Positions 43,971-47,896 of a stretch of DNA of 64,000 bases are shown here, in pieces. A program made the position numbers and the translations under genes. The notes below the pieces were generated by a model. It did not search any database, was not told the DNA's origin, and was given only the letters and a program-made list of their open reading frames with translations. Numbering within the stretch: position 1 is the first letter of the stretch; each line of letters starts with the position of its first letter. The stretch lies in the NCBI RefSeq assembly GCF_009906835.1, contig NZ_CP047652.1, positions 257,001 through 321,000 on the forward strand, given 5' to 3'. The DNA is from Aristophania vespae (lineage in GTDB: Bacteria > Pseudomonadota > Alphaproteobacteria > Acetobacterales > Acetobacteraceae).

Positions 43971-45293
43971 ATGTCGCATCCCGACCAGCTTGCTCATACA
44001 CTCCGTGCCCGTCATATCACGATGATTGCCTTAGGTGGCGTCGTAGGAGCTGGCTTTTTTGTTGGTGCTTCATCAGCTATTTTAAAAGCTGGGCCGGTGG
44101 TTTTTGTTTCTTACATGCTGGCTGGTCTTCTTATTTATCTTGTTAATCTTGCACTGCGAGATTTGGCTCTTGAAGGCCCTGGTAAGGGTTCCTTCATGAT
44201 GCAAATTCGCGAAACATTGGGTTTCAAAGTAGGTTTTCTGGCAGGTTGGGCGTACTGGTTAACCTGGGTTATCGTTTTGGCAGCTGAAGTCATTGCTGGC
44301 GCAGCGATGCTTAAACCCTTTATTCCATTGCCTTATTGGGTGATTGAATTATCTCTTTTATTGTCAATGACGGCTGTGAATCTGCTTTCAGTAAGGGGTT
44401 ATGCCGAGTTTGAATATTGGTTTTCGCTTATCAAATTGGTAGCGATCGGTGTTTTTGCTGTTATTGCGATTTGGGCCTTATTTAAAGGTTTTATGGGGTG
44501 GGGCGTGACGGTGCCAGTCCATCATAATTTATTCGATTTTGGTGGTCTTATACCAAAAGGATGGCCTGCCATTTTAGCCGTTATTCCCACCATTCTCTTT
44601 TCTATGACGGGAAGTGAGATTGTTACAGTAGCGGCTCTTGAATCAGATGATCCAGACGGTAATATTGTGCGCATCACCCGTACGATTGCCTGGAGAATTC
44701 TAGGCTTTTATCTCACATCCATAGCCTTAATTCTCTGTTTTGTACCGTGGTCTGATTTAATACCAACAAAATCACCCTTTTTGGTTGTTTTAAACCAAAT
44801 TGGAGTACCGTTTTCTGAGACTTTCGTTTGGATTGTTATTTTCTCAGCTGTGCTTTCAACATTAAATTCTGCTGTTTATGTCACATCACGAATTTTATAT
44901 GAATTAGCAGAAAATGGCGATGCTCCTGCTTTCTTTCTTAAAGTAGATGCAAAAAAGAAGCTTCCTGTAAGAGCCATTATGGCGGGAACTCTTGTCGCCA
45001 TTTTGATTTTACTGACTGCGATCGTTTCGCGTGATCAGTTTTTTGCTCTTTTATTGAGCATAACAGGGACTTTGATGTTATTTAATAATCTACTGATTAT
45101 TCTGGCACAGATGAAAATTGATAAAATACATACTATTGGCCCCAAATTAGCGTGTCTCCTTTTAGCTTGTTCGTTTGGTGCTATGTTGTGGGTTCCTGAA
45201 ACGCGAAGCCAGGCTTTACTCGGGTTTCTTGCCATTTTTGTTATTTCTATTGCGTCTTGGTGGCGTTACCGGCTTGTTTCTGCAAAGGACTAA
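43971..45293 (+). CDS. Amino acid permease (APC superfamily, AAT/GABA-permease-like)
   Basis: An inner-membrane proton-coupled amino acid transporter of 440 aa with about 12 transmembrane helices. The N-terminal substrate-binding helix has the family motif ALGGVVGAGFFVGASSAI (the 'GxIGxGxFxG' element). A helix with GWAYWLTWVIVLAAEVIAG (about 100) and SMTGSEIVTVAALESDDP (about 215) are typical of the AAT (GabP/ProY/CycA) group. Specificity cannot be read from the sequence. A separate transcript after the hairpin-rich spacer. Confidence 0.88.
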   Translation: MSHPDQLAHTLRARHITMIALGGVVGAGFFVGASSAILKAGPVVFVSYMLAGLLIYLVNLALRDLALEGPGKGSFMMQIRETLGFKVGFLAGWAYWLTWVIVLAAEVIAGAAMLKPFIPLPYWVIELSLLLSMTAVNLLSVRGYAEFEYWFSLIKLVAIGVFAVIAIWALFKGFMGWGVTVPVHHNLFDFGGLIPKGWPAILAVIPTILFSMTGSEIVTVAALESDDPDGNIVRITRTIAWRILGFYLTSIALILCFVPWSDLIPTKSPFLVVLNQIGVPFSETFVWIVIFSAVLSTLNSAVYVTSRILYELAENGDAPAFFLKVDAKKKLPVRAIMAGTLVAILILLTAIVSRDQFFALLLSITGTLMLFNNLLIILAQMKIDKIHTIGPKLACLLLACSFGAMLWVPETRSQALLGFLAIFVISIASWWRYRLVSAKD

Positions 45294-45339
45294 GCTTATC
45301 TGATTATAAAATAATTTGATAAAGGGATGAGGGTCGGTG

Positions 45340-46416
45340 ATGGAGGTTTTTTCAAGACGTTCACGTAACCTTCCAAAAGCTGATGAAAAAAATAATCTCA
45401 CCCCTTTAGTGACACCAGAAAGATTACAATCTCTTTTTGTCAGTCGTTTAAATGAAATATGCGCCCGCTTTGAGGAATGGTCTTACCCATTTACGGTTGT
45501 AGGTCGTCTGGGAACTGTTCCTCCTGATAGTTGGCGGCGATATGAACCGCTCCCTTTGCTAGATTTGCAAGGTCAAGCAGAAATTGGCCTTGAAGTGACG
45601 CTCTCACTTTTGGAAGAAGCAGGTTTAAAGGCTGGCGATGTCGTACAAGCGACAGGTTTTTTGAGGGCACGACTGGTAAAGGGACAAGTAAGCCCCCGTT
45701 TTGAAACAGTCAGTTTGTGCCGTAATGAAAATAGTTCTGATGCTGCCCTTCAATCAGAAGCAAATATTCTGTCTCTTTTAAGAGATTTACCTGCCGAGAC
45801 GCATAATTTTCCCCATAGAGATGACTTACGGCTTCTTTTGGTTAATTTGAGCCTACCGCCAGAATGTTTGCAGGATTTGAAAGGGGCTCTGGGGGCTTTA
45901 TGGCATGAGCGTTCTATTAGAAGTTTAACGATAAAACCGACTGACCGGCAAATGCTGCTTCAAAGCCTTTTAACCATGACAGAAGATATTGTGGTTATAT
46001 TAAGCGGAAATGAAGGCTTGCCAATGCTCGAAAATAGCTTTGTCTTAAAAGCAATAACAGCCTGCAAAGCCCATCGAATTTCAGTTCTGGAAAATAGGCG
46101 TCTTGAGAAGAAACTTGACGAAAAAAAACCTGCCTTAAGGTCAGTCGCAAGCCATTTAATGGACCGTCACTTTAGCTCTGCTCTTGAGGCGGGGCGCTAT
46201 ATCAGAGAGCAAAGTGGCCAGACATGGCAAGCACGTGAAGAAGAGCGTGCCCGTCAGGAAGAGCTTAATGCTTTGAGAGATAGTCTTGCCCGCTTTGCTG
46301 ATTTGCCTGATGTTTCCCGAAAATTTGGTGTATGGCGCGGCATTATAATTGGTGTTGCTTTAGGAATTATTTTAGTTGTGGTTTGTTTACTCGTTATGAG
46401 GTTGTTAGGGTTTTGA
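45340..46416 (+). CDS. XseA-like protein tethered by a C-terminal membrane helix
   Basis: 358 aa. The first part (about 25-135) looks like the OB-fold of exonuclease VII large subunit: FTVVGRLGTVPPDSWRRYEPLPLLDLQGQAEIGLEV and AGDVVQATGFLRARL. A second part (about 160-265) follows the XseA catalytic-core outline (TEDIVVILSGNEGLPMLENSFVLKAITACKAHRISVLE, where XseA has a 'GGGSxEDLW' stretch and 'PVISAVGHE'), but that glycine-rich signature is not kept. Next comes an alpha-helical, charged segment (about 270-325), then one membrane helix (about 332-355, GIIIGVALGIILVVVCLLV). So it is a degenerate or paralogous, membrane-anchored relative. Nuclease activity is doubtful. Start taken at ATG 45340, next to a GTG at 45337. 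Confidence 0.5.
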   Translation: MEVFSRRSRNLPKADEKNNLTPLVTPERLQSLFVSRLNEICARFEEWSYPFTVVGRLGTVPPDSWRRYEPLPLLDLQGQAEIGLEVTLSLLEEAGLKAGDVVQATGFLRARLVKGQVSPRFETVSLCRNENSSDAALQSEANILSLLRDLPAETHNFPHRDDLRLLLVNLSLPPECLQDLKGALGALWHERSIRSLTIKPTDRQMLLQSLLTMTEDIVVILSGNEGLPMLENSFVLKAITACKAHRISVLENRRLEKKLDEKKPALRSVASHLMDRHFSSALEAGRYIREQSGQTWQAREEERARQEELNALRDSLARFADLPDVSRKFGVWRGIIIGVALGIILVVVCLLVMRLLGF

Positions 46417-46429
46417 GCTGTTTTCTGGC

Positions 46430-47896
46430 TTAGGGTAAAAAGGGTTGAAGTGCAGGAATAAGCTTGCCCAGTAATTTTGCGTCTTTTGACGTCAAAAGAG
46501 AGAATCCTCTTCTAATATCATGATGCTGTGCCTCTGGGTGTGTTGCTAACCACTCAAAAAGACCTTCCAGGCTTAAACCTTGTTGCTCATTACAAACAGG
46601 TAAGGGCAAGAAATAGGGTACCACATTTTGCGGCGAAGGCAGCATTTCGTAGAAAAGCCTGTCATGCCCGCTTTCTTTAGGTAATGTGACAATATTTGAT
46701 CTGTAAGTTGGTGCTGTTGGTACAACGGCTAGACCTTCAGAGCAGTTAATGTCTCCTAGCTGAAACTTGTTATTATCAATAGAAATAAGCGTGAGTAAAC
46801 GTGGGTAACGGTCTTGCGTTACACATAGCAGCAAACTGGCCTTTTCATGCTCATTGCTATCAGTCAGTAAATATTTATTATTGTTAGTTCTTAGCAGCCA
46901 GATACGGGTTGTATCTGCGGGCGGAAAAGCTTGTTTTGAAAGTAGAAGAGATTCTTCTTTATTTAAACGGATACGGCGATAAGAAAACCCAAAACGTGTT
47001 GCCTCATCAGGGAGTATAAGATCGTCATCGTCACGAATAGTGCTATTTTTAATATCTAATTTATAAGCGTCTATAAGGGCTTCAAACTGTGTCAGGCCGG
47101 CGGCAAATAACGTTTCTAAAAGGCGGGCCTTAATCTGGCGTGTTGCTCCCAAATGACGATAGCCATAGGTGTCTTTTATATCGCTGCGATTATAATAACG
47201 CTGGAGGATATGATCTAAAGTGTTTTCACTGCTGGTTTTGTCATAATTTGAACAAACATAGTGAAGAATGCGCCCTCCTTCCCATGTGACGTCGGTTTGT
47301 GGGGAATAAGGCTTACCTGATGCTGTTTCCCATTCAGAAGGTAACAAGTTATATGTTACGGGATCGTTAATCTTGTTTGTGTGAATAATGGCTGAAAGGC
47401 GAACGAAAAGCTTGACGAATTTATGGTCAGGAAAGGAGATATCAGCCCGCCATGGGTGAGCTGTAACGATATGGCCTTTAGGTCGTTCTCTATGGTTATT
47501 TGCACCAAAAATACACCAATTTAATGCGATAGCTTTTGTTTTGGCGCGGCATTTTAAAATATTGGCGAGGGTACTGTCAGGGCAAAAATATTCATCAATG
47601 TCCAAACAAAGCATCCAGCCGCCTTTGTCAAAAAGAGACTCTATAGCCTGCTTTATGAGCCCAAGGCGCTTTTCCTGAGGGCCTGTTTCAGAAACCAGAG
47701 AAGGGGAAAACCACTTTACCGGCCAGGTTTTCTCGAACTTCTGAACAATATCTTTTGTTCCGTCGTCGGAACCAGCATCAACAATAATAATACGCTGAAA
47801 GCCAAATGTTAGATGCCATGACAGCCAGTCGATAATATCTTTTTCTGCATTCTTAACAAGCAAAACAAGATAAGCGCGGGGATTTTTAGCGGACAT
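46430..47896 (-). CDS. Glycosyltransferase family 2 protein (PF13704-like)
   Basis: 488 aa. The N-terminal domain matches the 'LVKNEADIIxWLxWHxxxGFxxIxIxDxxSxDGT' group: YLVLLVKNAEKDIIDWLSWHLTFGF, IIIVDAGSDDGT, and the metal-binding LCLDIDEYFCP (about residues 90-105). Such enzymes often sit in surface-polysaccharide or capsule loci. The C-terminal 200 residues (beta-rich, from about 290) do not recall a known domain to me. It is downstream of, and overlaps by 11 nt, a small lipoprotein gene, so the two are probably coupled. Sugar and acceptor unknown. Confidence 0.82.
   Translation of the reverse strand: MSAKNPRAYLVLLVKNAEKDIIDWLSWHLTFGFQRIIIVDAGSDDGTKDIVQKFEKTWPVKWFSPSLVSETGPQEKRLGLIKQAIESLFDKGGWMLCLDIDEYFCPDSTLANILKCRAKTKAIALNWCIFGANNHRERPKGHIVTAHPWRADISFPDHKFVKLFVRLSAIIHTNKINDPVTYNLLPSEWETASGKPYSPQTDVTWEGGRILHYVCSNYDKTSSENTLDHILQRYYNRSDIKDTYGYRHLGATRQIKARLLETLFAAGLTQFEALIDAYKLDIKNSTIRDDDDLILPDEATRFGFSYRRIRLNKEESLLLSKQAFPPADTTRIWLLRTNNNKYLLTDSNEHEKASLLLCVTQDRYPRLLTLISIDNNKFQLGDINCSEGLAVVPTAPTYRSNIVTLPKESGHDRLFYEMLPSPQNVVPYFLPLPVCNEQQGLSLEGLFEWLATHPEAQHHDIRRGFSLLTSKDAKLLGKLIPALQPFLP

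Follow-up and report, generated by a model that had tools for sequence, protein, structure and literature searches.

The window analysed here, a stretch of 64,000 nucleotides (G000:C1:257001-321000) from a genome of 2.02 Mb in two contigs, encodes a 358-residue protein that is probably a non-catalytic, inner-membrane-tethered paralogue of XseA, akin to proteins of mobile elements. We put the probability of this reading at about 0.7. Exonuclease VII is a soluble two-subunit enzyme. In XseA, the core is followed by a long coiled-coil part that binds XseB and by a C-terminal domain. In the window protein, all parts beyond the core would have given way to a charged helix followed by a membrane anchor at the C-terminus. 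The original prediction of a degenerate, possibly non-catalytic XseA paralogue is supported computationally, with inactivity read from the residues.

The reading frame starts at ATG 45340 and ends with the stop codon at 46414-46416, giving 358 codons. An alternative GTG start at 45337 would add one residue. The ATG start is favoured because the sequence M-[E/D]-[AV]-F is common to the Acetobacteraceae orthologues, L049 excepted. The N-terminus M-[E/D]-[AV]-F-x-[RK]-[RKQ] (45340-45363) is strongly conserved in the same orthologues, again with the exception of L049, and is perhaps a short binding motif. Downstream of residue 280, the model and the hydropathy profile contain only one 40-residue helix and a membrane helix. 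The charged helix is the most conserved of six stretches compared, and the OB part shares 70% identity with that of the nearest relative.

Table 1. Coordinates of the XseA-like gene, its parts and neighbours in the window, and of a related conjugative locus
Feature	Coordinates	Strand	Basis or remark
XseA-like tail-anchored protein gene, 358 aa	45340..46416	+	ORF and orthologues
N-terminal peptide, residues 1-20 (MEVFSRRS...)	45340..45399	+	pLDDT <50; orthologue alignment
Predicted OB-fold domain, residues 21-130	45400..45729	+	model and fold searches
XseA-like core, residues 161-280, most active-site columns substituted	45820..46179	+	hhalign and residue table
Charged long helix, residues 281-320 (EEERARQEELNALRDS)	46180..46299	+	alignment, model, identity table
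C-terminal transmembrane segment, residues 335-353 (model helix 324-357)	46342..46398	+	hydropathy and model
Amino acid permease gene, upstream neighbour	43971..45293	+	ends 43 nt before GTG 45337
Glycosyltransferase-like gene, convergent neighbour	46430..47896	-	ORF and cluster comparison
Conjugative locus: transglycosylase-like, DUF3363 relaxase, XseA-like, coupling protein, CopG-like, TrbB-like, TrbE-like	L102:109-11804 (G383:C25)		

On its own, the window protein matches no Pfam family at E values up to 1, PF02601 included, has no PHROGs family, and is unmatched by the XseA equivalog TIGR00237 at E up to 0.01. Its two NCBIfam matches lie far below the cut-offs (13.8 bits versus 74, and 11.1 versus 300). 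Since the protein alone matches no XseA model, its homology to XseA rests on intermediates and on the fold.

Four relatives provide the link in sequence. L049, Gluconobacter L057, P0002 (Sulfuricystis) and P0004 (Paenibacillus) score 70.2, 54.1, 68 and 108.9 bits, respectively, against Pfam Exonuc_VII_L (PF02601), all above the cut-off of 35.9 bits. Against TIGR00237 they reach 56.8-115.8 bits, below the equivalog cut-off of 180 bits; the canonical XseA of the host genome scores 420.2 bits. The Gluconobacter protein L057 carries the motifs RGGGDASEF and GHTANRTLAE, a modified XseA signature. L049, which is the XseA-like gene of locus L102 in genome G383, is 23% identical to the window protein and matches it with an E value of 4.4e-25. 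The same search matches canonical-length xseA frames in many genomes: 372 of 397 are matched at E <= 0.001, mostly through canonical xseA as judged by frame length. Pfam OB families are matched in the canonical XseA of the host genome, and are unmatched in the window protein and in the four relatives.

Profile comparison extends the similarity over both domains. An alignment of 25 family sequences compared by hhalign with eight canonical XseA rows gives a probability of 82.8 and an E value of 9.4e-6, spanning the OB part and the core, whereas a 10-row set gives a weak result (probability 5, E 0.008). Searched by sequence against the PDB, the 10-row profile matches no ExoVII; a 13-row profile that includes intermediates matches E. 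coli ExoVII (PDB 8txr) with an E value of 1.2e-7.

The AlphaFold model built from the 25 family sequences has a mean pLDDT of 81.2 and a pTM of 0.52. Its top Foldseek matches are three chains of 8txr, with E values from 3.5e-12 to 3.0e-11, and the next match follows at 1.4e-4. VIA-align superimposes the model on 8txr with a Z score of 13.3 over 266 residues and an rmsd of 18.1 Å; the next row has a Z score of 10.7. The rmsd of 15-18 Å over whole alignments and the pTM of 0.52 indicate that the domain folds agree with ExoVII but their mutual placement does not. An earlier model from 10 rows had a pLDDT of 66, and Foldseek already placed 8txr first; in VIA-align it matched mostly OB-fold proteins, with 8txr absent among the matches listed. 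The predicted model thus holds an OB fold followed by an ExoVII core fold, as the original prediction had outlined, with the OB assignment resting on the model and on profile comparison. An unrelated fold, or homologues in another named family, had been named as findings that would speak against XseA. Neither was seen; it is the XseA models, not those of another named family, that the intermediates match.

The least probable of the readings considered is that the protein has no relationship to XseA and combines an OB fold, an α/β domain of other origin and a membrane anchor. It would suit the window protein alone, which has no significant family match, and the core alone, which also resembles type II dehydroquinase (Z 10.7) and PurE (Z 10.5). 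It is contradicted by the intermediates and by the fold comparison over both domains, which also exclude a chance OB resemblance.

Transmembrane segments were called from Kyte-Doolittle hydropathy. The peak 19-residue mean of the window protein is 3.37, at residues 335-353, and the preceding charged stretch is helical in the model, so the proposed order of a charged helical stretch and a single C-terminal transmembrane segment holds. A search for homologues with the same membrane tail in Acetobacteraceae had been suggested as a check; a C-terminal peak of at least 1.86 is present in all 27 family and plasmid rows and, in addition, in the Paenibacillus protein (2.58). In the eight canonical XseA rows, by comparison, there are only internal maxima of 1.19-1.70. 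Among five other plasmid XseA-like proteins, four lack a C-terminal peak (0.96-1.71). The fifth, from Rhodococcus, has a peak of 2.09 at residues 338-356 of 408, yet groups with the comparison rows (84/57), and the membrane segment may therefore have been gained more than once. The N-terminal part presumably faces the cytoplasm. The charge preceding the membrane segment ranges from -2 to +4 among relatives, which makes the support for this topology weak.

The active site of E. coli XseA contains Asp155, Arg205, His238 and Asp241 in canonical numbering, within the HDI, RGGG and GHETD motifs, residues that we take to be catalytic. The PDB title of 8txr, 'ExoVII(H238A)', is the only support drawn on here for that role. 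The corresponding columns were compared in 50 proteins, comprising 22 canonical or comparison rows and 28 tail-anchored rows. Every one of the 22 canonical or comparison rows has D, R-GGG, H and D. D, RGGG and H are retained in eleven tail-anchored rows, namely seven Gluconobacter-type proteins, L049, and the Sulfuricystis, Azospira and Paenibacillus proteins; the last Asp column is Asn in ten of these and Asp in L049. RGGG is absent from the other 17 of the 28, the window protein among them. As predicted, the glycine-rich signature is not kept in the window protein, with both RGGG and GH absent at the aligned positions. The first Asp, of HDI, is kept, RGGG is replaced by SGNE, the His by Asn, and the last Asp by Leu. 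On these residues, the window protein is expected to be catalytically inactive.

A membrane-anchored nuclease with a rebuilt active site is very unlikely. The retained first Asp column would be compatible with it, as would the Asp, Arg-Gly-Gly-Gly and His kept by the Gluconobacter and plasmid relatives. The substitutions at RGGG, His and the last Asp in the window protein argue against it, and so does the lack of a common replacement sequence among the 17 RGGG-less rows. In two of them, the Saccharibacter rows L051 and L052, H and D occupy the last two active-site columns.

Loss of RGGG may have occurred once or twice. The core tree groups the Neokomagataea proteins with the other motif-less rows (80/93). 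Among the canonical XseA proteins, G179 (Neokomagataea) groups with G225 (Gluconobacter) (99/91). Both numbers of losses are possible, since the data do not reject a tree constrained to unite the proteins of Gluconobacter with those of Neokomagataea (p-AU 0.205).

Conservation is distributed differently in the two groups. Across the core, the seven Gluconobacter-type rows share a mean pairwise identity of 77% and the 17 motif-less rows one of 31%. The corresponding values are 67% versus 49% for the OB fold and 81% versus 55% for the long helix. From 253 pairs of 23 sequences, dN/dS could be estimated for 50 pairs of more than 60% identity (36 Gluconobacter-type and 14 motif-less) and lies between 0.04 and 0.22, many dS values being above 1. 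The 14 motif-less pairs give 0.05-0.22. The pair formed by the window gene and L050, a locus of Acetobacteraceae bacterium ESL0709, is saturated (pS 0.82), leaving the window branch without a dN/dS estimate. The dN/dS and identity values together indicate that purifying selection maintains the gene in the relatives and that constraint has moved from the core to the OB fold and the helix.

Decay of the gene after loss of function is accordingly judged highly improbable from the codon comparison in relatives. The lost active site and the variable core would fit such decay, as would genome G032 (genus g33), which has no family match. Against it stand the frames free of stop codons in 30 of 30 matching genomes, the dN/dS values of the motif-less pairs, and the retention of the OB fold, the helix and the anchor.

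Within the taxonomic family, a search with the single protein gave matches in 11 of the 200 genomes examined; one match (L011) was judged to be an unrelated ORF and was dropped. The 10-row profile finds the family in 30 of 397 genomes and 6 of 102 genera. The closest relative in the sample is in G061, of the same genus as the window genome. G032 lies outside the 30, and its single match, at 2.5e-8, is of the strength seen for canonical xseA. The 18 named loci belong to Saccharibacter, Bombella, Parasaccharibacter, Gluconobacter, Neokomagataea and two 'Acetobacteraceae bacterium' records. The host genera are largely flower-, fruit- and bee-associated bacteria.

Across the window and these 18 loci, the gene neighbourhood is largely conserved. 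The upstream permease cluster is found at 11 of the 19 loci and the convergent glycosyltransferase cluster at 17. A fixed operon partner was rejected on the grounds that the permease cluster is present at only 11 loci and the downstream glycosyltransferase gene is convergent. The neighbours of the window gene resemble ordinary chromosomal genes rather than a mobile element.

Canonical exonuclease VII genes, sought elsewhere in the genome, are present in one copy each. The single canonical xseA (PF02601 match) lies at C1:536576-537571 and encodes 513 residues, and the single xseB match (PF02609) is at G000:C1:1255672, about 950 kb from the window gene, consistent with the earlier statement that no xseB is nearby. 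This coexistence favours the main rival reading, in which the protein regulates the exonuclease VII of its own cell from the membrane, as a pseudo-enzyme subunit that joins or competes with canonical XseA and thereby limits or recruits it. Pseudo-enzymes often regulate active relatives, and the two proteins have the OB and core folds in common. However, the XseA region beyond the core is missing, and the core is the variable part in the motif-less lineage, the OB fold and helix being better kept. That the core varies more than these two parts suggests that it is probably not the main interface. We regard regulation of exonuclease VII as unlikely.

The kinship with mobile elements comes from the closest relatives outside the lineage of the window protein. 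Tail-anchored XseA-like proteins are also encoded on the plasmids Sulfuricystis pSTJ1, Azospira pAZI09 and Paenibacillus pSb31l. The pSTJ1 and pAZI09 genes each adjoin a divergent PD-(D/E)XK gene and have PRTRC genes within 10 kb; the pSb31l gene is near a Hypoth_Ymh gene. The annotation of pAZI09 (L128) also places a dnaN gene of the plasmid's own beside the PRTRC genes; the same 40 kb include dinG and a toprim-domain gene. In G383, which belongs to the same taxonomic family as the window genome, 16 nt separate the XseA-like gene from the end of a preceding DUF3363 relaxase gene (PF11843, 1.1e-126), and a coupling-protein gene (PF02534, 2.2e-101) lies 1.3 kb further along. Genes for a T2SSE ATPase (TrbB-like) and a TrbE-like protein follow the coupling protein, all on one strand.

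Other plasmid copies are of different kinds. In Acetobacter, Acinetobacter and Caballeronia, the xseA gene carried by a plasmid is adjoined by xseB. A Microvirga plasmid encodes an XseA-like protein of 503 residues that lacks a membrane peak, and the six features shown include no xseB, so an adjacent xseB fails as a divider between full-length and anchored plasmid copies. The Rhodococcus qingshengii plasmid gene (L127:1171-2397) encodes a 408-residue XseA-like protein with all active-site columns and 52 residues after the membrane segment; no xseB is annotated within the 24 kb shown.

Near relatives are rare in wider searches. Among 398 genomes of the phylum, the 13-row profile gives three matches beyond 1e-14, in the window genome, in G673, where the coordinates match pSTJ1, and in G509, where the frame of 465 residues is canonical-looking. 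Among 385 genomes of the class, L049 gives one match beyond 1e-15, the window genome, and it gives two matches among plasmid records at E <= 1e-3. These counts do not measure the general abundance of tail-anchored XseA-like proteins: 155 plasmid records, a few of which were inspected, were matched by P0004. No relative of P0002 was found in viral contigs. Two records from a phage collection (L122 and L123; MT835504.1 and MT836401.1) hold canonical XseA in bacterial-looking stretches and were used as canonical rows only. Each has nusB-like, xseA, xseB-like and ispA-like ORFs in a row, and both are probably bacterial contigs labelled as phage.

In the core tree, which is unrooted, has long branches and is based on 115 columns, the 28 tail-anchored rows share one side of a branch supported at 94/85 (94% of 200 bootstrap trees), apart from the canonical XseA of the same genomes. 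This split favours an old tail-anchored lineage over a recent duplication of a local xseA. Descent from a mobile element to the chromosome would fit the kinship described above.

The upstream regions were scanned in 33 genes (L024, L040, L042 and L047 are among those left out). All 11 Gluconobacter-type genes (L039, L041, L043, L044, L045, L048, L055, L056, L057, L058 and L063) have a GAACN4GTTC palindrome at -31/-32, which is absent upstream of the 22 other genes examined, including the window gene. The motif-less gene L035 has GTTCN7GTTC at -108, which may be due to chance. In five LexA-positive genomes, GAACN7GAAC precedes lexA at four of five loci and recA at three of five; it precedes recA in none of three genomes without LexA. 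GAACN4GTTC occurs at three of the five lexA loci, inside a divergent neighbouring ORF that resembles ribosomal protein L33. SOS control of the window gene was rejected, the palindrome not being demonstrably a LexA site and being absent from the window gene. The Gluconobacter-type palindrome is possibly an operator for another regulator. Three of the eight genomes examined, G000 (window), G157 (Saccharibacter) and G169 (Bombella), have no LexA above the TIGR00498 cut-off, and the five g55 genomes do; the window genus, Saccharibacter and Bombella may have lost this SOS repressor.

In the mechanism that we propose, the gene for a plasmid- or conjugative-type protein would have settled permanently on the chromosome in the lineage that comprises Gluconobacter, Neokomagataea, Saccharibacter, Bombella and the window genus. 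Gluconobacter has kept the core. The window lineage has lost active-site residues and its core varies more, the OB fold and the membrane-proximal helix being better retained. OB folds also bind proteins and sugars; here the OB fold would bind single-stranded DNA, either entering the cell or present at repair sites, and the protein would keep it at the inner membrane uncut. Judging by the relatives, we favour DNA that is incoming or transferred, or else repair sites close to the membrane, as the place where the protein would act, with low confidence in the exact process. A defence role, also raised in the original prediction, receives no support from PADLOC, which matches no family to the window protein at E values up to 1.

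A broader and speculative proposal, which we consider doubtful, concerns the class as a whole. Tail-anchored XseA-like proteins could be a class, so far unrecognised, that serves conjugation or the establishment of plasmids by catching or trimming single-stranded DNA at the inner membrane on its way out of or into the cell. One of them would have been domesticated in a group of acetic acid bacteria, standing under a dedicated operator in Gluconobacter and becoming a non-cutting tether for incoming or repair-site DNA in the window lineage.

Beyond the original prediction, the analysis adds the canonical xseA and xseB elsewhere in the genome, the graded loss of the active site, the evidence of selection, and the plasmid and conjugative kinship. 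No membrane-anchored XseA relative, and no exonuclease VII beside relaxase genes, was found in the titles and beginnings of abstracts that the literature searches listed. A membrane-fixed form that has no annotated xseB neighbour on three plasmids and stands behind a relaxase gene elsewhere raises the question of whether it handles single-stranded DNA during conjugation.

XseA (E. coli, PDB 8txr; TIGR00237; PF02601 and PF13742) resembles the window protein in placing the OB fold ahead of the core and in its fold, and shares the RGGG and GH motifs with the intermediates. The two proteins differ in size, the host's own XseA having 513 residues and the window protein 358. The window protein has nothing XseA-like beyond the core and a C-terminal membrane segment instead, has lost most active-site residues and has no adjacent xseB. 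The plasmid xseA-xseB pairs of Acetobacter oryzoeni, Acinetobacter ursingii and Caballeronia grimmiae are likewise extra XseA copies on mobile DNA, but their proteins have 420-641 residues and no C-terminal membrane peak, and xseB adjoins.

The closest counterparts are the anchored proteins. The L049/L102 protein of G383 has the same architecture as the window protein but keeps all active-site columns, and its gene lies between those for a relaxase and a coupling protein. The pSTJ1, pAZI09 and pSb31l proteins, annotated as exodeoxyribonuclease VII large subunit, have 338-351 residues and, like the window protein, consist of an OB-like part, a core and a C-terminal membrane segment; the annotated stretches shown contain no xseB. 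They differ in their plasmid location and in keeping RGGG and GH, with Asn at the last Asp. We propose a tail-anchored group of about 340-370 residues with an XseA-like OB fold and core, a C-terminal membrane segment and no adjacent xseB, the last feature being judged by annotation only in the plasmid members. The window protein has all of these properties. Within this group, the series from a motif kept in Gluconobacter to a motif lost in Neokomagataea, Saccharibacter, Bombella and the window genus constitutes a natural experiment in the passage from nuclease to pseudo-enzyme with the membrane anchor kept.
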